Assembly (NCBI RefSeq): GCF_017603825.1
Contig: NZ_CP072014.1
Coordinates: 1,240,001-1,304,000 of the forward strand
DNA: 64,000 nucleotides
Source: Arthrobacter crystallopoietes
GTDB taxonomy: Bacteria > Actinomycetota > Actinomycetes > Actinomycetales > Micrococcaceae
Reading direction: 5' to 3'
Shown one piece after another: positions 13,953 to 44,702 of the stretch. The notes under the pieces were generated by a model, which was given only the letters and a program-made list of their open reading frames with translations, did not search any database and was not told the DNA's origin. How positions within the stretch are numbered: the stretch's first letter is position 1; the number at the start of each line of letters is the position of its first letter. The position numbers were made by a program, and so were the translations under genes.

Positions 13953-14782
13953 CCCAGACCAGCAACCACATGGCGGGCGAGACCGATCCCGCCGGACTGA
14001 CAGGAACCATGCTCTCGGTCGAGAAGCTCTCGGTCGGCGTCGGGACCGGGACCCGTTACCTGCAGATTCTCGACGACGTCGACCTTACGATCAGGCAGGG
14101 CCAGACGGTCGGCCTCGTCGGTGAGTCCGGTTCCGGTAAAACCACCCTCGGCAAGGCCCTTGTCGGCGAGATGCCGATCACCGCTGGCAGAATCCGCGTC
14201 GGGGGCACAGACCTCGGCGCCCTGTCCCGCTCAGAGCGCCTCGCCATGCGCCGGCGGGTCCAGCTCATCCCGCAGGACCCGTACTCTTCGCTGAGTCCCC
14301 GCCGCACCATCGGCCAGACACTAGCCGAGGCGATCGACCCGCGGCGGGCGGACCAGCGGAAGCACCGCAACGCCATCCGGCACTGGCTCGAAAAAGTTTC
14401 CCTGCCAGGCGAAGCAGCCGAGCGGTACCCGCATGAGTTCTCGGGCGGGCAGCGTCAGCGCATCGCCATTGCTCGTGCCCTAGCAGTCGAGCCCGAACTC
14501 ATCATCGCGGACGAGGTCACCTCGGCCCTGGACCTGACGACACAGGCCGAGATCCTCAACCTGCTGGCCGACCTGCGCGAGGACCTGGGGCTGACGATGC
14601 TTTTCATCTCCCACAACCTCGCCGTCGTCCGCCACGTCAGCGACCAGGTCACCGTCCTCTTCCGCGGTGTCGTGGTCGAATCCGGCGACGTCGACCGCAT
14701 CTACGACGTCCCCCAGCACCCGTACACCCAGCAGCTGATCGCATCCGTCCCCGGCGGACCAGCCTTCAACATCGACGCCTAA
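13949..14782 (+). CDS. ABC transporter ATP-binding protein, DppF/OppF type
   Basis: 277 residues. Walker A GESGSGKTT, Q-loop IPQDPYSSLSPR, signature FSGGQRQRIAIARAL, Walker B LIIADEVTSALD and the switch His in FISHNLAVVRHVSD are all present. It supplies the second nucleotide-binding domain for the importer made with the fused subunit at 12216 and the permease at 11192. The start overlaps the preceding stop (ATGA). It is slightly shorter than many OppF proteins, because the C-terminal oligopeptide-transporter extension is reduced to the HPYTQQLIASVPGG segment. Confidence 0.92.
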   Translation: MTQTSNHMAGETDPAGLTGTMLSVEKLSVGVGTGTRYLQILDDVDLTIRQGQTVGLVGESGSGKTTLGKALVGEMPITAGRIRVGGTDLGALSRSERLAMRRRVQLIPQDPYSSLSPRRTIGQTLAEAIDPRRADQRKHRNAIRHWLEKVSLPGEAAERYPHEFSGGQRQRIAIARALAVEPELIIADEVTSALDLTTQAEILNLLADLREDLGLTMLFISHNLAVVRHVSDQVTVLFRGVVVESGDVDRIYDVPQHPYTQQLIASVPGGPAFNIDA

Positions 14783-14795
14783 GCGAAAGGCCACC

Positions 14796-16463
14796 ATGTC
14801 CACCGACTGGATATTCCACTCCGGCAGGGTCTTTGACGGCCTCCGGCTCCATCCCAACGCCACCGCAGTCGCAGTCAGCGGCGGACGGATTACCGCCGTC
14901 GGTACCGACGATGAGGTCCGCGCCGCCGCCGGCCCGGCCCGCGAGTACATCGATCTCGCCGGCCGGCTGTTGACACCCGGGTTCACCGACGCACACGTCC
15001 ACGCCCTCTACGGGGGCCTTGAGAGGCTCGGGTGCGACCTTACCGAATGCTCCGGGGCCGACGCCGTACTGGCCCGCATCGCCGAATTCGCGGCAATTTC
15101 CGACAAGCCCTGGGTCACAGGTGGCGGCTGGAACATGGCGGACTTTCCAGGCGGTACGCCGCACGCCGACCTGCTCGACAACGTGGTCCCTGACCGGCCG
15201 GCCTTCCTCGTCAACCGCGACCACCACAGCGGCTGGGCCAACACGGCTGCGCTGCGTAAGGCCGGCATTACGGCGCAGACCCCCGACCCCGCCGACGGCA
15301 GGATCGAGCGCGATGCGACGGGGCAGCCGACCGGGACGCTCCACGAGGGGGCTATGGACCTCGTCGGAGATCTGGTCCCTGCCCCGACACGGGAAGAGAT
15401 GGCAGCCGGGCTCCTGGAGGCCCAACGATACCTGCACCGCCAGGGGATCACGGGCTGGCAGGAGGCGATCATCGGCAACTACGCCAGCCATCCGGACGGC
15501 GCCGAGATCTACCACGGGTTGGCAGCCGAGGGCCTGCTCACCGGGCGGGCCACGGGGGCGCTTTGGGTGCCGCGCACGGTCAAGCCGGACACCGTGGCCG
15601 ATCTCGTCGAAGGCTTCGCCACGCGCCGCGACGCCAACGCACTGGCCGGGTTCCCCACCGTCAGCGCCAAGATCATGGTCGACGGCGTGCCGGAGAACCG
15701 CACCGCCGCGATGCTCGAGCCGTATGTCCAGTCCTGCGCCTGTTCCCCGCGCGAAACAGACGACCGCGGCCTGACTTACCTGGATCGCGAGTCGCTGCAA
15801 GCGGCGGCGACGGCCCTCGACGCAGCCGGCTTCGACCTGCACATGCACGTTATAGGGGACCGCGCCGTACGCGAGGGGCTCGATGCCGTTGCGGCCGCCC
15901 GCGCTGCCAACGGCCGCAACGGCAGCCGCCACCACATGGCCCACATCCAGGTCATCGACCCCGCCGACCTGTCCCGGTTCGCAGGCCTCGGCGTCACCGC
16001 GAACGCCCAGGCACTCTGGGCATGCCACGACACTCAGATGCAATCCCTGACGATCCCCGTGCTCGGGGCCGAACGGGCAGCGCGCCAGTATCCCTTCCAA
16101 TCTCTCGTCTCCGCCGGGACGCGCCTGGCCATGGGCTCCGACTGGCCCGTCTCCTCTCCGGATCCGTGGCAGGCGATCCACGTCGCCGTCACACGCCGCG
16201 AGCCCGGCCACCCCGACGCGGAGCCGCTCATCGCCGCCGAGGCCCTGGAACTGGAGACTGCGCTCGCCGGGTACACGTCCGGCTCGGCGTGGCTCAACCG
16301 GCATGAGAACGGCGGCGTGATCGCGCCGGGCCGGGCAGCGGACCTCGTCGTCCACAACGCCGACCCGTTCGGCCTGCCCGCCCACGAGCTTTCCACCATG
16401 GCGGCCACCTTCACCATGGTCGGCGGGAGCCCGGTCCACATCGCGGAGTCCGCGCTTCTATAG
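14796..16463 (+). CDS. Metal-dependent amidohydrolase, YtcJ-like (Amidohydro_3)
   Basis: 555 residues. An N-terminal composite domain leads into GFTDAHVHALYGG, where His67 and His69 are the HxH metal ligands; HMHVIGDRAV and HHMAHIQVI supply later histidines, and GSDWPVSSPDPW carries the catalytic Asp. The C-terminus shows the usual GxIAPGRAADLVV closing strand. YtcJ-type enzymes are zinc hydrolases of cyclic or linear amides, but natural substrates are mostly unknown. GAAAGG precedes the ATG. Its place directly after the transporter genes suggests it works on the imported compound or on the product of the amidase. Confidence 0.9.
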   Translation: MSTDWIFHSGRVFDGLRLHPNATAVAVSGGRITAVGTDDEVRAAAGPAREYIDLAGRLLTPGFTDAHVHALYGGLERLGCDLTECSGADAVLARIAEFAAISDKPWVTGGGWNMADFPGGTPHADLLDNVVPDRPAFLVNRDHHSGWANTAALRKAGITAQTPDPADGRIERDATGQPTGTLHEGAMDLVGDLVPAPTREEMAAGLLEAQRYLHRQGITGWQEAIIGNYASHPDGAEIYHGLAAEGLLTGRATGALWVPRTVKPDTVADLVEGFATRRDANALAGFPTVSAKIMVDGVPENRTAAMLEPYVQSCACSPRETDDRGLTYLDRESLQAAATALDAAGFDLHMHVIGDRAVREGLDAVAAARAANGRNGSRHHMAHIQVIDPADLSRFAGLGVTANAQALWACHDTQMQSLTIPVLGAERAARQYPFQSLVSAGTRLAMGSDWPVSSPDPWQAIHVAVTRREPGHPDAEPLIAAEALELETALAGYTSGSAWLNRHENGGVIAPGRAADLVVHNADPFGLPAHELSTMAATFTMVGGSPVHIAESALL

Positions 16464-35613: not shown

Positions 35614-36029
35614 ATTTCCCCCAACGGAAAGTTTTGATGTAACGAACAATCAAAGGATAGCGTCAGCGGGCACTGAATTGTGATGACAGTAATCGGGGAG
35701 CCATAATGCATCCCGCGCTCTCCCGTGAGGTGTGCGTCGGAACATGACCTGCTGTGACGCAGCATGTCCTTTCTTTGAGCAGCCAGCCGTCATTGCGACA
35801 TCTAAATCCCCTCCAGCGTCTTCATATTGGTTGAATCGGATCAGCCATCCAGAGCGGCCGAGAGACCTGGCTCGTCGACGCCGCAGCAAATTTCGTGGAT
35901 TCCCTCCACGAATAGTGCTTCCGCCAGGACCGATGGAGATCTCACGATTCGGGCCGCACCATGGCGCCGTGTCCAAGCGGCCAGGTTCGTCGATTTCTTC
36001 ACTATCTAGAAATTGAAGGAACGCGACAC
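35614..36029. other. 416-base gene-free interval
   Basis: No supported gene. It must carry the promoter for the ABC-monooxygenase operon starting at 36030. A perfect 8-base hairpin TTCGTGGA (35892-35899) / TCCACGAA (35905-35912) with a 5-base loop lies about 118 bases upstream of that start. No riboswitch recognised. Confidence 0.5.
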
Positions 36030-37136
36030 ATGGTCCATACAGACATCGAATCCACCCCCCGGGGCGCCGAACGCCGGTTCCCCAACCTGCTCTTCAAAGG
36101 CGCCGGCTTTGCAGTCGCCGCAGCATTGCTCGTCACCGGCTGCTCGCTGAAGGAGCCGGTCCCGCAGTCCGGCGGCGCCGCCGGCGGTACAGGCGGAGAC
36201 CCAGCGGCGGCCGCCGTTGCCCCGGCCGAAGAGGTTGATCTTGCCAATGCTCCCTCCCTGGAGGGCAAAACCATCGGCATTGCAGCGAAGGACATCGTGC
36301 ACGACTTCAGCCGCGTGGTCTACGAGGAACTGCAGGCGAGCATCGAGGAGCGCGGCGGCGAGGTGATTGCCACCCAGGCCGAGGCCAAGGACGGCAAGCA
36401 CGTCACCGACGTCGAAAATCTTGTCACGCAGCGCCCCGACGCCATCGTGGTGATCCTGGGCGACGCGCAGACCCTCACCCCCGCCCTCAAGAAGGTCGAC
36501 GACGCCGGCATCCCGCTCTTCACCGTGGACTTCCAATCGGAATACAGCGCCAACAACGTCACCAGCGACAACTGGGTGATCGGCTCCACGCTGGCCCGAA
36601 CGCTCGCCGAGGACATCGGCGGCGAAGGCAAGATCCTGGCATTCAACGGCTTCCCCGGCGTGGCCCCGTGCCGCATCCGGTACAGCGAACTGGAGGTTGT
36701 GCTCGAGGACTATCCCGAGATCGAGATCCTGCAGCCCGAACTGCAGGACAAGTACGAGGGAACCATCGAGGACGCCAAGAAGCAGATCCAGGACCAGTTG
36801 CGCCGGCTGCCCGAGGGCGAAGTCGACGCTGTCTGGAGCTGCTGGGACATTCCGCTGATCGGCGCCGCGCAGGCGATCGATGCAGCTGGCCGGGACGACA
36901 TCAAGCTCTACGGCGTCGACGCCGAACCCGGCGCGCTGGACCTGATCGCAGATCCTTCCAGCTCCTACCAGTTCACCGTGGCCCAACAGACCAAGGCCAT
37001 GGCCGCGAAGTCGGCTGAGAACGTGGCGCTGTTCCTCGGTGGCCGCGAAGCCGACGTACCCAACACCAGCTACCTGACCCCGGTGTTCGTCGACAAGTCC
37101 AACGTGAACCAGGTGCGCAGTGAACTCGGCATCTAA
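36030..37136 (+). CDS. Sugar-type ABC substrate-binding lipoprotein (RbsB-like fold)
   Basis: 368 residues from ATG 36030, AAGGAA upstream; a longer start at 35961 is unlikely. Lipobox LVTGC near residue 38 after a hydrophobic stretch. The mature protein has the type I periplasmic-binding pattern: KTIGIAAKDIVHDFSRVVYEELQASIEERG, NLVTQRPDAIVVI, AGIPLFTVDFQSEYS, GEGKILAFNGFPGVAP and AVWSCWDIPLIGAAQAI. This family usually binds pentoses, hexoses or autoinducer-2. Here it leads an operon with two flavin-type monooxygenases, so the ligand may be something else. Confidence 0.9.
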   Translation: MVHTDIESTPRGAERRFPNLLFKGAGFAVAAALLVTGCSLKEPVPQSGGAAGGTGGDPAAAAVAPAEEVDLANAPSLEGKTIGIAAKDIVHDFSRVVYEELQASIEERGGEVIATQAEAKDGKHVTDVENLVTQRPDAIVVILGDAQTLTPALKKVDDAGIPLFTVDFQSEYSANNVTSDNWVIGSTLARTLAEDIGGEGKILAFNGFPGVAPCRIRYSELEVVLEDYPEIEILQPELQDKYEGTIEDAKKQIQDQLRRLPEGEVDAVWSCWDIPLIGAAQAIDAAGRDDIKLYGVDAEPGALDLIADPSSSYQFTVAQQTKAMAAKSAENVALFLGGREADVPNTSYLTPVFVDKSNVNQVRSELGI

Positions 37137-38655
37137 GACCCCGCTGCTCGCAATGCGGGCCATCAACAAGTCCTTCGGCGCCGCCCAGGTCCTTGGCGAC
37201 GTGGACCTGTCCCTCGACTCCGGCGAGATCCTGGGCCTCGTGGGCGAGAACGGCGCCGGCAAGTCCACACTGATCAAAATCCTCACGGGACTCTACACGG
37301 CCGACGGCGGCACCATCCTCATCGACGGCCAGCCCGTTTCCATCGACAAGCCGGCCGCCGCCGAAGCCCTCGGAATCCACGTCATCCACCAGGACCGGCA
37401 TCTCGCCGGCCGGCTGACGGTCGCCGAACAGCTGTACCTCGGCCAGTCCTCGCTGGGACGGGGCTGGATCCAATCCCGGAAGCTTGAGGCCCAGGCTGCC
37501 AGCGACATCTTCCGGACCACCGGACAGAGGATCGACACGTCGCGGCTGGTCGACGAGCTTACCGTGGCCCAGCAGCAGTTGATCCAGATTACGCGGGCCG
37601 TGCTGTCCGAGCCCCGCGTGCTGATTCTGGACGAGCCCACCGCACCGCTGGCCGCCCGCGAGGTGGAGCAGCTCTTCGGTACGCTCCGGAAGCTGCAGTC
37701 CCACGACGTGGGCATCATCTATATTTCCCATTACCTGCAGGAGCTCAGGGACATCACGGCACGGATCACCGTGCTGCGCAACGGGCGCAATGCCGGCGAC
37801 GTCGACCTCCGCGACGGCGGCAGTCTGGACGGCGTCGTGGAGCTGATGGTCGGCCGCAAGGTGGTCGAATTCGACCACGCGCGGACCCCGCGCAAGCCGC
37901 AGGGCAATGAACCCGCTCTGAGCGTCCGTGGACTGAGTGTGTCGCGTGCGCTGGAAGGTGTGGACCTGGAGGTCAGGCCCGGCGAGGTGGTCGCGGTGAC
38001 CGGCCTTGTCGGCTCCGGAGTGGACGTGCTGGCCGACGCCGTCACCGGCATTTCCAAGCGCCGGGGCGACGTGGCGTTGAAGGGCAAGCCTGTTCGCGCC
38101 ATTGCGGACTTCATCGCCCGCGGAGGCGCCTATGTCCCGTCCAACCGGCGGCGGGACGGCGTCTTCGTGCGCAACACGGTCCAGGAGAATATCTCGGCGG
38201 CCAGCCTGAAGCGCGTCTCGCGGTGGCTGGGGTTCGTCTCCCCGGGCCTGGAACGGAAACTATCCGCCGGGCTCATCGAGCAGCTTGATGTCCGGCCGGC
38301 CGACGGAGCGGCCGTCGCGGGAAGCCTATCCGGCGGCAACCAGCAGAAGGTCGTGCTGGCCAAATGGCTCGCCACAAATCCCTCGGTTCTGGTCCTCGAC
38401 CAGCCAACCTCGGGGGTCGACGTCGGCAGCCGCTCGCAGATCTACGCACAGATCAACGAACTGGTTGATGCCGGCGCCGCCGTGCTGGTGGTGACCGTGG
38501 ACCTGGAAGAACTGGTCGGGATCGCGGACCGGACCCTGGTCCTTTACCGCGGCAAGGTCGCGGCCGAGCTCGCGGGTTCCGACGTCACCACCGACCGCAT
38601 CCTGGAGATCGCCTCCGGGGCGGCCGCCACCGAGAATACGAGGGAGGCCGCATGA
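37120..38655 (+). CDS. Sugar-type ABC ATP-binding protein, two ATPase domains (RbsA-like)
   Basis: 511 residues. First domain: Walker A GENGAGKST, Q-loop IHQDRHLAG, signature TVAQQQL (variant of LS-G-Q), Walker B VLILDEPTAPLAA. Second domain: a degenerate Walker A (VTGLVGSGVDVL) and a complete signature LSGGNQQKVVLAKWLA with VLVLDQPTSGVDVGS, the normal asymmetry of RbsA/XylG proteins. The GTG at 37120 overlaps the upstream gene by 17 bases; ATG 37153 is a possible later start. It powers the importer with the two permeases downstream. Confidence 0.9.
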   Translation: MNSASKTPLLAMRAINKSFGAAQVLGDVDLSLDSGEILGLVGENGAGKSTLIKILTGLYTADGGTILIDGQPVSIDKPAAAEALGIHVIHQDRHLAGRLTVAEQLYLGQSSLGRGWIQSRKLEAQAASDIFRTTGQRIDTSRLVDELTVAQQQLIQITRAVLSEPRVLILDEPTAPLAAREVEQLFGTLRKLQSHDVGIIYISHYLQELRDITARITVLRNGRNAGDVDLRDGGSLDGVVELMVGRKVVEFDHARTPRKPQGNEPALSVRGLSVSRALEGVDLEVRPGEVVAVTGLVGSGVDVLADAVTGISKRRGDVALKGKPVRAIADFIARGGAYVPSNRRRDGVFVRNTVQENISAASLKRVSRWLGFVSPGLERKLSAGLIEQLDVRPADGAAVAGSLSGGNQQKVVLAKWLATNPSVLVLDQPTSGVDVGSRSQIYAQINELVDAGAAVLVVTVDLEELVGIADRTLVLYRGKVAAELAGSDVTTDRILEIASGAAATENTREAA

Positions 38656-39659
38656 GCGCCGCCACGCTGGAAGAATCCGCACAGGCAGGACCCGACACCC
38701 CTCGACGGACGCGTCCCGCATTGATCACCTGGGCGGGCTACGGCATGGTGCTGCTGGTCCTGGCCCTCTTCGCCATCGGCTCACCGCATTTCCTGCAATG
38801 GTCCAACCTGGCCTCGGTGCTGAACCAGGCCGCGGTCTTCGCCGTCGCGGGAATCGGACTGGCCATTGTCATCATCACCGGCGGGGACGACGTCCTCGAG
38901 GGAGGCATCGACCTCTCCCTTGGCGCCGTCGCGGGCCTGGCCGGAACCGTGACCGCGGTCGCCGTCGGTGCCGGGGCCGGAGTTCCGGTTGCCGTCCTGG
39001 GGGGACTGGCGGTCGCCGCCGCGATCGGAGCGGCGAACGGTGCTGCCGTCGTCCTCGGTCTCCGGCCCCTGCTGGCCACCTTGGCGACCATGGGCATCGC
39101 CACGTCGCTGGAACTCGTCGTGAGCGAGAACCTCAAGGTCGCATTGGAGGGGAGCCTCTTCCTGTGGCTGCGGCAAGGCAGCGTGCTCGGCCTGCCCGCC
39201 GCGGTCGTGCTGCTGGTGCTCGTGGCAGCCGCAGCCTGGTGGGCTCTTGGCAGGACGGCGTGGGGCGTGAACAGCTACGCGGTCGGGCAGAACGCCACCG
39301 CAGCGTCCGTCGCCGGACTCGATCCCGCACGCTACCGCTTCTTCAGCTACGTCATCAGCAGCCTGCTCGGCGGCATCGCGGGCGTGCTGCTCGCCTCGAG
39401 GCTCTCGGCCGCCGTGCCGGGGATCGGCGCGCAGATCCTGCTGGACATCATCCTGGTCGCCTACATGTCCACCGTGTTCTCCCGCCGGCTGGTGGTCAAC
39501 ATCCCGGGAACCGTCGTTGCGGCGGTCTTCGTGGCCGGACTGGCCAACGGCCTGACCCTCCTGGGGGTCGCCAGCCAGTGGATCGGCGCCGCGAAGGGCG
39601 TGCTGATCCTGCTTGTACTCGCAGTTGTGGTCGTCCGAGGAAGGAGCGCCGACAAATGA
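38652..39659 (+). CDS. Sugar-type ABC permease (RbsC-like) 1
   Basis: 335 residues, eight to ten hydrophobic segments. The branched-chain/ribose permease pattern is clear: ASVLNQAAVFAVAGIGLAIVIITGGDDVLEGGIDLSLGAVAGLAG, ANGAAVVLGLRPLLATLATMGIA, and AVGQNATAASVAGLDPARYRFFSYVISS. Asp-rich substitution of the usual GGIDLS context (GGDDVLEGGIDLS) is slightly longer than normal. Start overlaps the ATPase stop (ATGA). It pairs with the next permease to form the channel. Confidence 0.9.
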   Translation: MSAATLEESAQAGPDTPRRTRPALITWAGYGMVLLVLALFAIGSPHFLQWSNLASVLNQAAVFAVAGIGLAIVIITGGDDVLEGGIDLSLGAVAGLAGTVTAVAVGAGAGVPVAVLGGLAVAAAIGAANGAAVVLGLRPLLATLATMGIATSLELVVSENLKVALEGSLFLWLRQGSVLGLPAAVVLLVLVAAAAWWALGRTAWGVNSYAVGQNATAASVAGLDPARYRFFSYVISSLLGGIAGVLLASRLSAAVPGIGAQILLDIILVAYMSTVFSRRLVVNIPGTVVAAVFVAGLANGLTLLGVASQWIGAAKGVLILLVLAVVVVRGRSADK

Positions 39660-40750
39660 CGCTGACCCAGCATCAACCTGTCCGGAATCCGCGCAAGGCG
39701 CCCGGTTCCGAAGGCTCGAAGAATTACGACGGCGCCGCCGCCCGGGCATCGCAGGTCCTGCCGCGCCTTATCGCCCCGGTGGCCCTGGCCGGCATCCTGC
39801 TGACCTTCAGCCTCCTCTCGCCCAACTTCCTGGTTCCCGGAAACCTCCTGAGCGTGCTCAGCCAGATGGCCATCCTGGCCCTGGTGGCGGTCGGCCTGAC
39901 CGTCGTCGTGCGGGCCGGCGGCATCGACCTGTCGATCGGCGTTGCCCTGGACCTGGCGGCGCTGGGGGCCGCGGCACTCATCGCCGATGGCTACCGCGCC
40001 TGGGTGGCCATCGCCGTCGGACTATTCTTCGGGCTGCTCGTCGGCGCCGTGAACGCGGCCCTCATCGTAGGCCTGAAGATCCCGCCGTTCCTGGCCACGC
40101 TCAGTGTCTGGTTCATCGGCACCAGCGTCCAGCAGTTGCTGACGGGCGGCGGCGCCCCGATCTATCTGTCCACGCCCCGCGTGCCGATCGAGTTCGCGCT
40201 GCTGGGCCGCGGCTACGTGCTGGACCTGGACGGCGTGGTGCTGACAGTGGCCATCGTGGCCGTCGTCGTTGCTGTGCTCCTGGGCCTGACCCGGTGGGGG
40301 CGTGCGGTCACCCTGGCGGGCGAGCAGCCGACCGCGGCACGCATCTCCGGCCTGCGGGTCAACCGGTTGAGCGTCAGCGCCTACCTGCTTTGCTCCCTGG
40401 TGGCAGCCTTCGCCGGCGTCATCCTCGCCGCGCGGACCAACGGGTTCGTGCCCGGCAGTGGACAGGCCTATCTGATGGACGCCATCGGCGCCGTCTTCAT
40501 CGGCGCGACGTTGAGCAGGTTCGGCCGTGTGTCGGTGCCTGGCACGCTGGTGGGTGTGCTGATCTTCGGCCTGCTCAGCAACGGCATGAACCTCATCGGC
40601 CTGTCCTTCTTCTGGCAGGGACTGGGACGTGGAATCGTCCTGCTGGCCATCCTGCTCCTCGGCGTTCTGCTGGCCCGAAATTCCGGCCGGCCCGGCCCGT
40701 TCGGACGCCTCCTCACTCCGGCCGCCGCACCTCGACAGAAAGCCGACTAG
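39656..40750 (+). CDS. Sugar-type ABC permease (RbsC-like) 2
   Basis: 364 residues from ATG 39656, with AAGGAG 9 bases upstream and ATGA overlap with the preceding stop. Motifs LVAVGLTVVVRAGGIDLSIGVALDLAALG, VGAVNAALIVGLKIPPFLATLSVWFIGTS and TLAGEQPTAARISGLRVNRLSVSAYLLCS fit the family. Two different permeases with one double ATPase suggest a heterodimeric channel, as in autoinducer-2 and some nucleoside importers. Two apparent longer frames on the same strand run into this gene from upstream, but their N-terminal parts read across permease 1 out of frame. Confidence 0.9.
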   Translation: MTLTQHQPVRNPRKAPGSEGSKNYDGAAARASQVLPRLIAPVALAGILLTFSLLSPNFLVPGNLLSVLSQMAILALVAVGLTVVVRAGGIDLSIGVALDLAALGAAALIADGYRAWVAIAVGLFFGLLVGAVNAALIVGLKIPPFLATLSVWFIGTSVQQLLTGGGAPIYLSTPRVPIEFALLGRGYVLDLDGVVLTVAIVAVVVAVLLGLTRWGRAVTLAGEQPTAARISGLRVNRLSVSAYLLCSLVAAFAGVILAARTNGFVPGSGQAYLMDAIGAVFIGATLSRFGRVSVPGTLVGVLIFGLLSNGMNLIGLSFFWQGLGRGIVLLAILLLGVLLARNSGRPGPFGRLLTPAAAPRQKAD

Positions 40751-40752
40751 CC

Positions 40753-42189
40753 ATGGCACAACGCATCAGCCTCAACGCCTTCGACATGACCACTCCCACG
40801 CACCAGAGCCCCGGGCTGTGGCAGCATCCGGAGAACCGCGCCCATACGTACAACACCCTGGAGTACTGGACGGACCTGGCGCAGACGCTGGAACGCGGCA
40901 CGTTCGACGCCCTGTTCCTGGCCGACGTGCTGGGGATCTACGATGTCTACAAAAACTCGTCGGCACCCGCGCTGCTCGACGCCGACCAGGTTCCCTTGAA
41001 CGATCCGTTCATGCAGATCTCCGCGATGGCCACGGTCACGAAGAACCTCGGCTTCGCGGTCACCAGCGCACTGACCTACGAGCAGCCCTACGCGCTGGCC
41101 CGTAAGTTCTCATCGCTGGACCACCTCACCCGCGGGCGCATCGGCTGGAACGTGGTGACCAGCTACCTCGAGTCGGCGGCGCGCAACCTCGGCATGACCC
41201 GCCAGCTCGGACACGACGACCGCTATGACCTGGCCGAAGAGTTCATGGACGTGGTGTACAAGCTGTGGGAGGGCTCCTGGGAAGAAGGCGCCGTGCTTCT
41301 GGACCGGGAGCGGGGTATCTACACCGACCCGTCCAAGGTCCACCCGATCAACCACCACGGCGAATACTTCGACGTGCCGGGCATCCACCTCTCCGAGCCG
41401 TCCCTGCAGCGGACACCCGCGATCTTCCAGGCCGGCGCTTCGCCGCGCGGCCGGGCCTTCGGAGCGAAGCATGCCGAGGGCATTTTCCTGAACTCGATCC
41501 GGCCGGAGATCACCCGCAAGGCCACGGACGCCACCCGGGACGCGTTCGAGGCCGCCGGCCGACCACGGAATGCCGGGAAGTTCTACGCGCTGGTGACGGC
41601 CGTCGTCGCCGATTCGGACGCAGAGGCGGAGAAACTGCACCGCGAGTACCAGTCCTACTCCTCCCGCGAGGGCGCCATGACCTTCTACGGCGGTTGGTCC
41701 GGCCTCGACCTGTCGCGCTACGCCGGCGAGGAGGAACTGAAATACCTGGACACCAACGCCGCACGCTCCGCCCTTTCCATCTTCACGACGGCGGATCCTG
41801 AGCGTTCCTGGACGCCGAATTCGGTTGCCGACTACCTGGGTGTCGGCGGAATCGGGCCCGTGCTGGTCGGTTCACCGGAAACGGTTGCCGACGAGATCGA
41901 ACGCTGGGTGGACGTGGCGGGACTGGACGGCATCAACCTGGCCTACGCCATCACCCCGGGCTCGTTCGAGCAGTTCGTCGACCTGGTGGTTCCGGAGCTC
42001 CGCAAGCGTGGCCGCGTCTGGGAAGACTACGAAGGCTCGACCCTGCGCGAATACCTTGCCGGGCCGGGCAACGCCCGGGTCGCTGACAACCATCCGGCAG
42101 CGGCATACCGCGGAGCCTACGCCGGGTCGCCGAGCGCGGCCGATTCGGCTGCCACCAGTACACCCGAAGCCATTCTCGGCGCCCGCTGA
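40753..42189 (+). CDS. LLM-class FMN-dependent monooxygenase, NtaA/SnaA/DszA type
   Basis: 478 residues from ATG 40753, two bases after the permease stop. Family features: MAQRISLNAFDMTTPTHQSPGLWQHPENRA, WTDLAQTLERGTFDALFLADVLGIYDVY, ATVTKNLGFAVTSALTYEQPYALARKFSSLDHLTRGRIGWNVVTSYLESAARNLG, and HHGEYFDVPGIHLSEPSLQRTPAIFQAGASPRGRAFGAKHAEGIFLN. These enzymes use reduced FMN and oxygen to oxidise sulfones, alkyl sulfides, nitrilotriacetate or similar compounds, and need a separate flavin reductase, which is not in this operon. The C-terminal 30 residues are an Ala/Ser-rich tail. Confidence 0.9.
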   Translation: MAQRISLNAFDMTTPTHQSPGLWQHPENRAHTYNTLEYWTDLAQTLERGTFDALFLADVLGIYDVYKNSSAPALLDADQVPLNDPFMQISAMATVTKNLGFAVTSALTYEQPYALARKFSSLDHLTRGRIGWNVVTSYLESAARNLGMTRQLGHDDRYDLAEEFMDVVYKLWEGSWEEGAVLLDRERGIYTDPSKVHPINHHGEYFDVPGIHLSEPSLQRTPAIFQAGASPRGRAFGAKHAEGIFLNSIRPEITRKATDATRDAFEAAGRPRNAGKFYALVTAVVADSDAEAEKLHREYQSYSSREGAMTFYGGWSGLDLSRYAGEEELKYLDTNAARSALSIFTTADPERSWTPNSVADYLGVGGIGPVLVGSPETVADEIERWVDVAGLDGINLAYAITPGSFEQFVDLVVPELRKRGRVWEDYEGSTLREYLAGPGNARVADNHPAAAYRGAYAGSPSAADSAATSTPEAILGAR

Positions 42190-42210
42190 CCAGGACACGA
42201 AGGAAGAACT

Positions 42211-43434
42211 ATGAACACGACTGATACCTTGACCCGCACACCCTGGGCCGGAACGGCCGACGACGCCGAACTCGAGCACTGGCGGGGCGTTGCACAATCC
42301 GTGGCCGACCAGCTGGCTGTCGACGTCCTGGAGCGGGACCGGGCCAACCTGCAGCCGGTCGCTGAAGCACAGCTGCTGCGCTCTTCGGGCCTGCTTAACT
42401 TGCTGGTTCCTGCCGAATTCGGCGGGGGAGGGGGACACTTCGAGGCTGCGTTCGAAACCGTCCGCGTCCTCGCCACGGTGGACGGCTCCATCTCGCAGCT
42501 GCTGGCCTACCACTACTTCAACCAGGCCTGCATCGGGTTCTACGCCGACCCGGCCAGGCAGGCCGCCTGGTGGCGCCGTACCGTGGAGGGCGGCTGGCTC
42601 TGGGGCGACTCGGTCAACCCCGTGGACCCGACCCTGATCCTGAGCCCGGAGGGCGAAGGCTACCGGCTCAACGGCCTCAAGCGGTTCTCCACCGGCTCCG
42701 GTGTAGGCGACGTGATCATCATCAACGCCGCGATCGAGGGCGGCGCCGATCACAGCAAGGTCCTCGCCTTCGTTCTGGAAACGTCCCGGGAAGGCCTCGA
42801 GCTCGTGGATGACTGGGACAACCTCGGCCAGCGGCTGACTGGTTCCGGCTCCGTGAAGTACACCAACGTGCCGGTTCACCCGTCGGACATCCTCGGTGAG
42901 GTCACAGACGAGCCCATCTCCACGCTTCTCACGCCCGGCGTCCAGCTCGGCTTCGCCAACTTCTACCTCGGGGTAGCCCAGGGTGCGTTGCGGCAGGGCC
43001 GCGAGATCCTGCTTGCCCGCAAGAACTCCTGGTTCCTCTCGGGCGCCGAAACCTACGCTCACGACCCGGTATTCCAGCGTGTCCTCGGCGAACTGAAGGC
43101 CCGCACGGCTGCCGTCGAAGCTCTCGCCGAGAAGCTCAACCGGCGCTACGACCGCGAGGTCGCCCGCTCCGCCAGCCTGAGTGTGCAGCAGCGTGGCGAA
43201 TTCGCCGTCGCCATTGCGGAGCTCAAGGTGGTGGCCACGGAGATCGGCATCGAGGTCTCCAACCGGATCTACGAGGTGACCGGGGCCAGCTCGACCAAGA
43301 GCTCCGTTGGCCTGGACCTGTTCTGGCGCAATGTGCGGACACATTCACTGCATGATCCCGTGGACTACAAGAAGATCGAGGTTGCCGCCTACTACCTGCA
43401 CGGCGAACTTCAGCCGCTGTCCCTCTATACGTAG
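42211..43434 (+). CDS. Acyl-CoA-dehydrogenase-fold flavin monooxygenase, DszC/SfnC-like
   Basis: 407 residues, GAAGGAAGAACT upstream. The acyl-CoA dehydrogenase fold is clear (LLNLLVPAEFGGGGGHFEAAFETVRVLATVDGSISQLLAYHYF; RLNGLKRFSTGSGVGDVIIINAAI; SVGLDLFWRNVRTHSLHDPVDYKKIEVAAYYLHG). The C-terminal R-N-x-R-T-H-S-L-H-D-P block is typical of DszC/SfnC-type monooxygenases rather than true dehydrogenases; the usual catalytic Glu region is not obvious. Such enzymes oxygenate sulfur or nitrogen atoms with FMNH2. Together with the LLM enzyme and the importer it probably degrades one imported compound; no dszB-like desulfinase is present. Confidence 0.88.
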   Translation: MNTTDTLTRTPWAGTADDAELEHWRGVAQSVADQLAVDVLERDRANLQPVAEAQLLRSSGLLNLLVPAEFGGGGGHFEAAFETVRVLATVDGSISQLLAYHYFNQACIGFYADPARQAAWWRRTVEGGWLWGDSVNPVDPTLILSPEGEGYRLNGLKRFSTGSGVGDVIIINAAIEGGADHSKVLAFVLETSREGLELVDDWDNLGQRLTGSGSVKYTNVPVHPSDILGEVTDEPISTLLTPGVQLGFANFYLGVAQGALRQGREILLARKNSWFLSGAETYAHDPVFQRVLGELKARTAAVEALAEKLNRRYDREVARSASLSVQQRGEFAVAIAELKVVATEIGIEVSNRIYEVTGASSTKSSVGLDLFWRNVRTHSLHDPVDYKKIEVAAYYLHGELQPLSLYT

Positions 43435-43502: not shown

Positions 43503-44702
43503 TCACCGCCGTTCGGACAGGCGCACTGCCAGCAGCCCGCCGACGGCGAAGGCCAGGGTCGCAGCGAGGACGAGGAGCAGCGGCGCCGACCAGCCGCCTG
43601 TCACCGAGTTGAGCCAGCCAGCCAGGGGTGGCGCGCACGTGGCCGCCAGGTAACCGCCGGACTGGATGCGGGCAGAGGCCGAGGCCGCCTCCTTGTCGCT
43701 GCGGGTGATGCGCGGGATCAGCGAAAAGATGGCGGTGAAGCCGCCGCCCTGGGCAACGCCGCCGATGATCGACCAGAGTGCGTAGGCTTCCGGCGCGATG
43801 AGCAGCCCGATCGGCAACGTGATCCAGCAGAGCCCGATCACCGCGACCGGAATCCACGTGCGGGTCCGCGCCGCCAGCAGCGGCACGCCGAACGCGCCCG
43901 CGATGGCGGCAACCTGGAACAGCGAGGCGGTGGCACCTGAGGCGGCCAGGCCGAGCCCCCGCGTCTCGGACAGTAACAGCGGCAGCCACGCGGTGGTGGC
44001 ATAGTAGGCGCCGGACTGACCGCAGAACGCCAGGATCAGCAAGCCGACGATCCGCCGGTTGCGGTTTCCGGCAGTCGCCGCCCCGGGGCCGTCCGAAGCG
44101 GGTCCCGCCGTCGTTCGCTTGGTTGCCGTCCCCGCTGACACGGACTTCGCGGCATCTGCCCGGGCGCCGAACTGCCGCCGTCCCCACACCAACCAGTAGG
44201 CCAAGCCCGCCGCGATGACCACGCCCCACGAAGCGATAGCCCACCGCCAGCCGAAGAGTGCCGCGAGCGGCGCGGTGCCGAGCAGGGTGGCCATCGAGCC
44301 GACGTTCATCGCAGCCGAGTACGCGCCCGTGACCGTCGATACCTGCCGCCATGACACGTCGCGCCGGATGATGACCGGCACCACGATATTGCCCAGCGTC
44401 ATGGCGATGCCGATGAGCGCTGTCCCTGCCAGTACAACGACGGCGGGGCCGGCCGAGCGGATGATCGTTCCGGCAAGCACGCCTGCCAGGCAAAGGACGA
44501 CGGTTGCCTCCGGGCCGAAGCGGCGGATGGTGCGGGTGGCCAGCGGGGTGGCCAGGGCGAAGAGCAGCACCGGAAGCCCGGTGAGCAGGCCGGCGCCGAT
44601 GGCGTTGAGGCCGGTGTCGGCCCGGATATCGCTGATCACCGCCGTCGGGGCGATGATCGGGGCGCGCAGGCTCAGGGCCAGGACCACAATCCCGGTGATC
44701 AC
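43503..44702 (-). CDS. MFS transporter, CynX/NimT-like
   Basis: 399 residues from GTG 44702; twelve hydrophobic segments with LALSLRAPIIAPTAVISDIRADTGL and LATPLATRTIRRFG of the cyanate/nitroimidazole-transporter subgroup. There is a Ala/Thr/Gly-rich central loop. The start is uncertain: the frame stays open for 42 codons farther upstream, encoding an (Asn-Ala)n tract from a hexanucleotide repeat, but has no ATG/GTG there, whereas the nearest ATG (44829) is one base out of frame. A 5' indel or sequencing error is possible. Divergent from the AraC gene. Confidence 0.78.
   Translation of the reverse strand: MITGIVVLALSLRAPIIAPTAVISDIRADTGLNAIGAGLLTGLPVLLFALATPLATRTIRRFGPEATVVLCLAGVLAGTIIRSAGPAVVVLAGTALIGIAMTLGNIVVPVIIRRDVSWRQVSTVTGAYSAAMNVGSMATLLGTAPLAALFGWRWAIASWGVVIAAGLAYWLVWGRRQFGARADAAKSVSAGTATKRTTAGPASDGPGAATAGNRNRRIVGLLILAFCGQSGAYYATTAWLPLLLSETRGLGLAASGATASLFQVAAIAGAFGVPLLAARTRTWIPVAVIGLCWITLPIGLLIAPEAYALWSIIGGVAQGGGFTAIFSLIPRITRSDKEAASASARIQSGGYLAATCAPPLAGWLNSVTGGWSAPLLLVLAATLAFAVGGLLAVRLSERR

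Follow-up and report, generated by a model that had tools for sequence, protein, structure and literature searches.

A ribose-type importer operon with two flavin monooxygenases in Arthrobacter crystallopoietes: predicted S-adenosylmethionine riboswitch control and a probable role in organosulfur scavenging

Importers of the CUT2 type are defined by a substrate-binding lipoprotein of the PF13407 family, a double-domain ATPase and PF02653 permeases, and the flavin enzyme DmoA converts dimethyl sulfide to methanethiol and formaldehyde. In the 64,000-nucleotide stretch of Arthrobacter crystallopoietes DNA analysed here (the window, positions 1240001–1304000 of a genome consisting of a single 4.38 Mb contig), a complete CUT2 set with two permeases is followed by a DmoA-like and a DszC-like flavin monooxygenase, all six genes being located on the plus strand at 36030–43434, and is preceded by a match to the SAM-I (S-box) riboswitch, a sensor of S-adenosylmethionine (SAM). 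The available part of one paper places DmoA and DmoB in neighbouring genes of Hyphomicrobium, with a legend giving dimethyl sulfide to dimethyl sulfoxide and a mention of formaldehyde (PMC13352529); another, in its accessible portion, describes mtrACB of Bacillus cereus as a proposed methylthioribose importer with an S-box (PMC3228920). A survey of SAM-I riboswitches tabulates, among the Actinobacteria in its accessible text, Corynebacteriaceae and Mycobacteriaceae, and the terms Arthrobacter and Micrococc are absent from that text (PMC3766115). A first-pass annotation of the window had considered the pathway undescribed; in agreement with this, no operon with this combination was found described among the matches listed for the open-licence papers searched. 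Every part of the locus can be explained by known kinds of element.

A sulfur-related role of the operon is well supported by comparison with other loci, and it is quite probably that of scavenging an organosulfur compound under control of a SAM riboswitch. This interpretation is carried by the SAM-I aptamer upstream, the link between importer and enzymes kept across loci and the likeness of one enzyme to DmoA, the presence of a SAM riboswitch before the operon pointing to sulfur or methionine supply. The stop-to-start distances between the genes (−17, −4, −4, +2 and +21 bases) make a single transcript very likely. The short gaps or overlaps within a six-gene operon and the joining of a ribose-type importer to an NtaA-type luciferase-like monooxygenase (LLM) and a DszC-type enzyme had both been recognized in the first-pass annotation, and were borne out by the coordinates and by the Pfam and NCBIfam families (CUT2, NtaA/DmoA and DszC/SfnB; Table 1). 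Its further statement, that a desulfinase, kinase, flavin reductase and regulator are all missing, held for the first three, none of which was found among the six proteins with Pfam and NCBIfam, and failed for the regulator, since the predicted riboswitch is located upstream of the start it had assigned. A flavin reductase neighbouring the LLM gene, as DmoB neighbours DmoA, was not present in the window: the PF01613 search produced 12 matches genome-wide, the nearest at 1355199.

Table 1. Features of the operon and its leader, with positions counted within the window.
Feature	Position	Strand	Basis or remark
SAM-I (S-box) riboswitch aptamer, RF00162	35842–35939	+	cmscan 43.3 bits, E 2.2e-7 (9 kb searched)
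Possible anti-Shine-Dalgarno strand (TTTCTTCA)	35994–36001	+	8-pair helix with 36014–36021; shuffle p 0.098, not significant alone
Shine-Dalgarno region (TGAAGGAA) of the binding-protein gene	36014–36021	+	sequence
CUT2-type substrate-binding lipoprotein	36030–37136	+	PF13407
Double-domain sugar-type ATP-binding cassette (ABC) ATPase	37120–38655	+	GTG start; two ABC_tran stretches (Pfam)
RbsC-like permease 1	38652–39659	+	PF02653, 92 bits
RbsC-like permease 2	39656–40750	+	PF02653, 122 bits
FMNH2-dependent LLM monooxygenase, NtaA/DmoA family	40753–42189	+	PF00296; TIGR03860 516.9 bits
DszC/SfnB/MsuC-like flavin monooxygenase	42211–43434	+	acyl-CoA-dehydrogenase-type domains

Binding of SAM and control of expression by the leader RNA are predicted from the upstream match. 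The aptamer ended 90 bases upstream of the start codon of the binding-protein gene and was recovered in the genome-wide search at E 2.5e-8; cmscan marked a single pair of P3 and the three outermost of P1 as non-standard. Altogether the genome contained five SAM-I matches, three of them above the cut-off, and the other four were all placed in a second cluster at 1.12–1.14 Mb. A model of our own, made from five sequences (the window, three from another cluster of the same genome and the Paeniglutamicibacter locus L014) and applied to 33 sources, detected the aptamer upstream of the binding-protein gene in 17/17 Micrococcaceae loci, two of which match by construction because the window and L014 were used in building the model. 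A second aptamer preceded the DszC-like gene in five of these loci (L016, L064, L066, L067 and L069). Rfam's own model reached its cut-off in six of the eight Micrococcaceae relatives scanned (L014, L016, L018, L060, L064 and L069). In 21 distinct aptamers the P1, P2 and P3 helices and the conserved core were recovered: 85.5% of the cells were paired, compared to 81.3% in shuffled and 26.7–58.2% in slid alignments, changes on both sides of a pair occupied 24 cells against 11.2 after shuffling, and five P3 pairs had double changes. No variation was seen in P2, which is therefore uninformative on covariation, or in the inner P1 and P3 pairs, and the three outermost pairs of P1 were mostly unpaired.

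The Shine-Dalgarno stretch of the binding-protein gene can pair with a pyrimidine run whose letters differ between the lineages. For the corresponding test 21 of the 22 leaders were entered (L015 was left out) and the motif was not located in one of them; the shuffle p of the 20 leaders scored spanned 0.016–0.954, and for this reason control of translation through Shine-Dalgarno pairing is given as a suggestion only.

The search for relatives of the binding protein, the nearest named of which belonged to Arthrobacter, Paeniglutamicibacter and Zafaria (all Micrococcaceae), resulted in 20 loci, from which L032 (34% identity) was set aside, while the family search produced matches in 16 of 295 Micrococcaceae genomes, including L013–L017. 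In the 17 distinct Micrococcaceae loci (the window, L013–L018, L056–L058, L060, L063–L067 and L069, with L057 and L058 being 97% identical) the importer, LLM and DszC-like genes were always present together, so that the grouping is not a coincidence. The DszC-like gene of L069 was placed upstream of the importer and had its own aptamer, and 10 of the 17 loci (L015 partly) also matched an SfnB-like enzyme next to the set. The flanks of six loci, read by eye, had a phosphoesterase-like gene (L014 and L057) as the sole common neighbour. In the Microbacteriaceae, the family of Rathayibacter, Frigoribacterium and Plantibacter, 7 of 13 loci (L019–L031) had both an LLM and a DszC-like gene, oriented divergently to the importer. 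The LLM gene of the Rathayibacter locus L023 (8163–9547) is split into two frames overlapping by a few bases and seems disrupted, through either a frameshift or an error in sequencing. The order-wide search matched 3 of 396 genomes, the host itself included (the others were L070 and L071), and leaves the spread outside the Micrococcaceae under-sampled. The opinion of the first-pass annotation that such enzymes are not usually tied to sugar-type importers had to be abandoned, as the link recurs in many genera.

The LLM protein belonged to the NtaA/DmoA family, its TIGR03860 score being well above the cut-off of 279.7 bits, and was 55% identical to DmoA (6ak1) over 464 residues and 50% to LadA (3b9n). 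A riboflavin lyase identity (5w48, E 1.4e-88) was discarded as well weaker than the match to DmoA (E 5.9e-178). The DszC-like protein scored 259.2 bits with the DszC family NF043015 (cut-off 850) and 241.7 bits with the SfnB family TIGR04022 (cut-off 430.9), and its nearest solved relatives were 8cda, followed by the methanesulfinate monooxygenase 6u76. With the DszC cut-off not reached and no desulfinase among the six proteins, a dibenzothiophene route was rejected.

Similar enzymes were found with other importers, both in the host and in its relatives. The second cluster of the genome (1122000–1141000) encodes O-acetylhomoserine (OAH) sulfhydrylase (TIGR01326, 603 bits), SfnG (TIGR04021, 615 bits), an SsuA-family protein accompanied by a permease and an ATPase (these two assigned by eye), a Meth_synt_2 protein and an APC-like permease, together with two enzymes of the DszC/SfnB kind and one resembling DmoA, and within ~13 kb it has four SAM-I matches, three above and one under the cut-off, and one SAM-IV match (L033, L034). 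In a third cluster (274000–293000, L035) genes for a DmoA-like and an SfnB-like enzyme come immediately after an Opp/Nik-type ABC importer; a SAM-I match was not found there. Twenty Micrococcaceae genomes had an LLM at least 76% identical, and 16 of them were exactly the importer genomes, so that a separation of enzymes and transporter, which according to the first-pass annotation would have spoken against its reading, was mostly not observed. In the remaining four (L101–L104), L102 had the LLM gene alone of the set, while L101, L103 and L104 combined an LLM of 76–87% identity with DszC- and SfnB-like genes. The Pfam scan of L101 and L103 revealed an SBP_bac_1-type importer upstream of the LLM gene in place of CUT2. 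L103 and L104 each had two SAM-I matches and L101 and L102 none; in L103, which has no CUT2 importer, the LLM orthologue follows the other importer and the two aptamers. An LLM of 62–63% identity was present in 12 genomes of one genus, and in the three examined (L105–L107) it was near Ssu-type genes with SAM-I matches. The enzymes therefore give the impression of a sulfur cassette under SAM control that is combined with different importers.

From the observed gene order, conservation, riboswitch match, protein families and paralogous cluster we infer organosulfur uptake, an order of the enzymatic steps and a fate of the sulfur. At low SAM the leader RNA would permit expression of the operon, possibly at the ribosome-binding site, and the CUT2 importer would take up a polar organosulfur compound, perhaps a sugar- or polyol-like one. 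The DszC-like enzyme may then oxygenate the sulfur, or else an atom next to it, and the C-S bond may be cleaved by the DmoA-like LLM enzyme; the reduced flavin for both would come from a reductase whose gene lies elsewhere. The freed thiol or oxidised sulfur would finally enter methionine, perhaps via the OAH sulfhydrylase of the second, SAM-I-bearing cluster.

Several results weigh against organosulfur scavenging. The aptamer of the window scored 43.3 bits, 1.1 bits under the Rfam gathering cut-off of 44.4, and those of L013 and L057 were also under it; furthermore, two of the five pair-count measures were not exceptional, as 73 of 500 shuffles attained the seven pairs with double changes and 173 of 500 the 15 further pair types, and the other measures are inflated by the kinship of the sequences. 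In the Microbacteriaceae, two of the 13 loci had DszC-like and SfnB-like genes and no LLM, and four had the importer without the enzymes, in both cases within the flanks examined. The riboswitch was not found in any of the 13 with our own model, and Rfam applied to seven of them gave tRNAs only; these loci are probably controlled in another way. The closest solved binding protein, 4wt7, is allitol-bound and has no sulfur compound. Relatives of the binding protein with up to ~48% identity were present on 111 plasmid records, from which 14 hand-picked proteobacterial loci were examined: the importer has SfnB and/or LLM genes as neighbours in five (Shinella L081 and L090, both including OAH sulfhydrylase, Phyllobacterium L084, Pantoea L085 and Methylobacterium L086) and were not seen in nine, namely L042, L043, L089 (beside glycerol kinase), L082, L079, L083, L088 (sugar kinase and aldolase), L080 (mtn genes) and L087, the last of which has no annotation and was examined by tblastn only. 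Three of these nine hold a sugar kinase and an aldolase. The importer subfamily as a whole is therefore not sulfur-bound. In L084 a DszC-like match at 14517–15684 was in two pieces, with no annotated gene there.

The opposite interpretation, in which the importer serves for a common sugar or polyol such as ribose or allitol, with the enzymes simply sharing the transcript or acting on another compound, is improbable in our estimation. The SAM-I aptamer precedes the importer gene itself, and the link to the enzymes is kept across families. Plain ribose or xylose import was rejected, as no sugar-specific cut-off was reached among the NCBIfam families listed: the scores were 53 against 337 bits for RbsB, 364 against 745 for RbsA and 115 and 162 against 398 for the ribose permease, and the ATPase remained under the cut-off of every one of the 25 families listed of 190. 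In comparison with 4wt7, a CUT2 binding protein of Agrobacterium vitis, its contact Arg89 (Ala119 in the window) was replaced by Ala and its Asp64 (Ser94 in the window) by Ser or Gly in 16/16 actinobacterial rows. The counterparts of its polyol contacts Asp297, Arg217 and Gln319 were kept in 16/16 rows and that of His91 in 13/16. This retention speaks against a special case of organosulfur scavenging, a non-sugar substrate such as a sulfone, sulfonate or S-methyl amino acid for which the CUT2 importer has changed its specificity; such a substrate would be favoured by the SBP_bac_1-type importer before the same LLM, by the Ssu-type genes near the more distant one and by the further host genes of DmoA/SfnB type that accompany an Opp-type importer and an APC permease, and it is on the whole less likely than not. 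Catabolism of a chelator or N-compound similar to that by NtaA/EmoA, which would serve the supply of nitrogen or carbon, would agree with the family of the LLM protein and with its matches to the nitrilotriacetate monooxygenase 3sdo (E 4.6e-52) and the EDTA monooxygenase 5dqp (E 3.9e-42). Both matches were far weaker than that to DmoA, the SAM control does not fit either, and this option was set aside as highly improbable.

Within organosulfur scavenging, 5-methylthioribose is an attractive, weakly supported candidate substrate, and no result singles it out. It fits three parts at once, the ribose-type importer, the methyl-sulfide-type monooxygenase and the SAM sensor: the importer would bring in the thio-sugar, the DmoA-like enzyme with its DszC-like partner would split off the methylthio group, either as methanethiol or oxidised, and methionine would be rebuilt by OAH sulfhydrylase, so that the MtnK/A/B/C/D route is bypassed. 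The MtnA family PF01008 was absent from the host (control positive in 9/14), in which MtnK, MtnB, MtnC and MtnD were not searched for, and the only PF01048 match of the host was a purine-nucleoside phosphorylase. On a Klebsiella pneumoniae plasmid (L080, 9926–14440) a CUT2 binding protein of 40% identity is encoded, along with its importer, between mtnB and mtnCD. A XylB-like kinase and a 2-hydroxyacid dehydrogenase are encoded in the same stretch, the relative in L079 adjoins a fuculose-aldolase-like gene and the enzyme pair is also paired with other importers, all of which weighs against methylthioribose, as does a different importer proposed for it in gammaproteobacteria in the accessible part of PMC3228920. 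The L080 importer, which occurs with PfkB and FGGY kinases, is itself a possible methylthio-sugar importer. The 5-methylthioribose transporter binding protein TLET_1677 of Thermotoga lettingae (4ry8) was 23% identical to the window protein (rank 27), a match no better than those of many ribose and glucose binding proteins, and the Trp considered in this comparison also occurred in all 15 proteobacterial, 4wt7 and 3l49 rows; the pocket comparison is compatible with 5-methylthioribose and not specific for it. An O2- and flavin-dependent salvage of 5-methylthioribose or a related S-methyl sugar under the SAM riboswitch is doubtful as the specific function.

If organosulfur scavenging is correct, a subfamily of importers annotated as ribose-like is tied to sulfur nutrition by an RNA sensor, which also reveals the physiological signal, and a CUT2 annotation alone can mislead. 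The riboswitch signal also offers a direct way to the ligand through sulfur-source screens under methionine limitation; should the latter be a thio-sugar such as methylthioribose, the operon would represent a new aerobic route of methionine salvage.

Compared to the described systems, the LLM enzyme shares its family with DmoA and has, in addition, a DszC-like partner and an importer, and no reductase gene. Its partner has the domains and the best NCBIfam and PDB scores in common with the SfnB/DszC/MsuC group, albeit under the curated SfnB and DszC cut-offs. Similarly to mtrACB, as far as the latter is described in the accessible part of its source, the operon would combine a sugar-like ABC importer with SAM-responsive control and a proposed sulfur sugar; in contrast, mtrACB has three components and co-occurs with mtn salvage genes. 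With the S-box regulons the operon shares the predicted SAM-I aptamer upstream of genes for sulfur or methionine supply, while the target in this case is a sugar-type importer with DmoA/DszC-type enzymes.

Facing the operon, a CynX/NimT-like transporter of the major facilitator superfamily is encoded on the minus strand (43503–44702), under its family cut-off and with relatives in L013, L056 and L060. The promoter scan gave one promoter-like site (35678–35707) against 0.7 expected, and the terminator scan two terminator-like sites against 3.5 expected.

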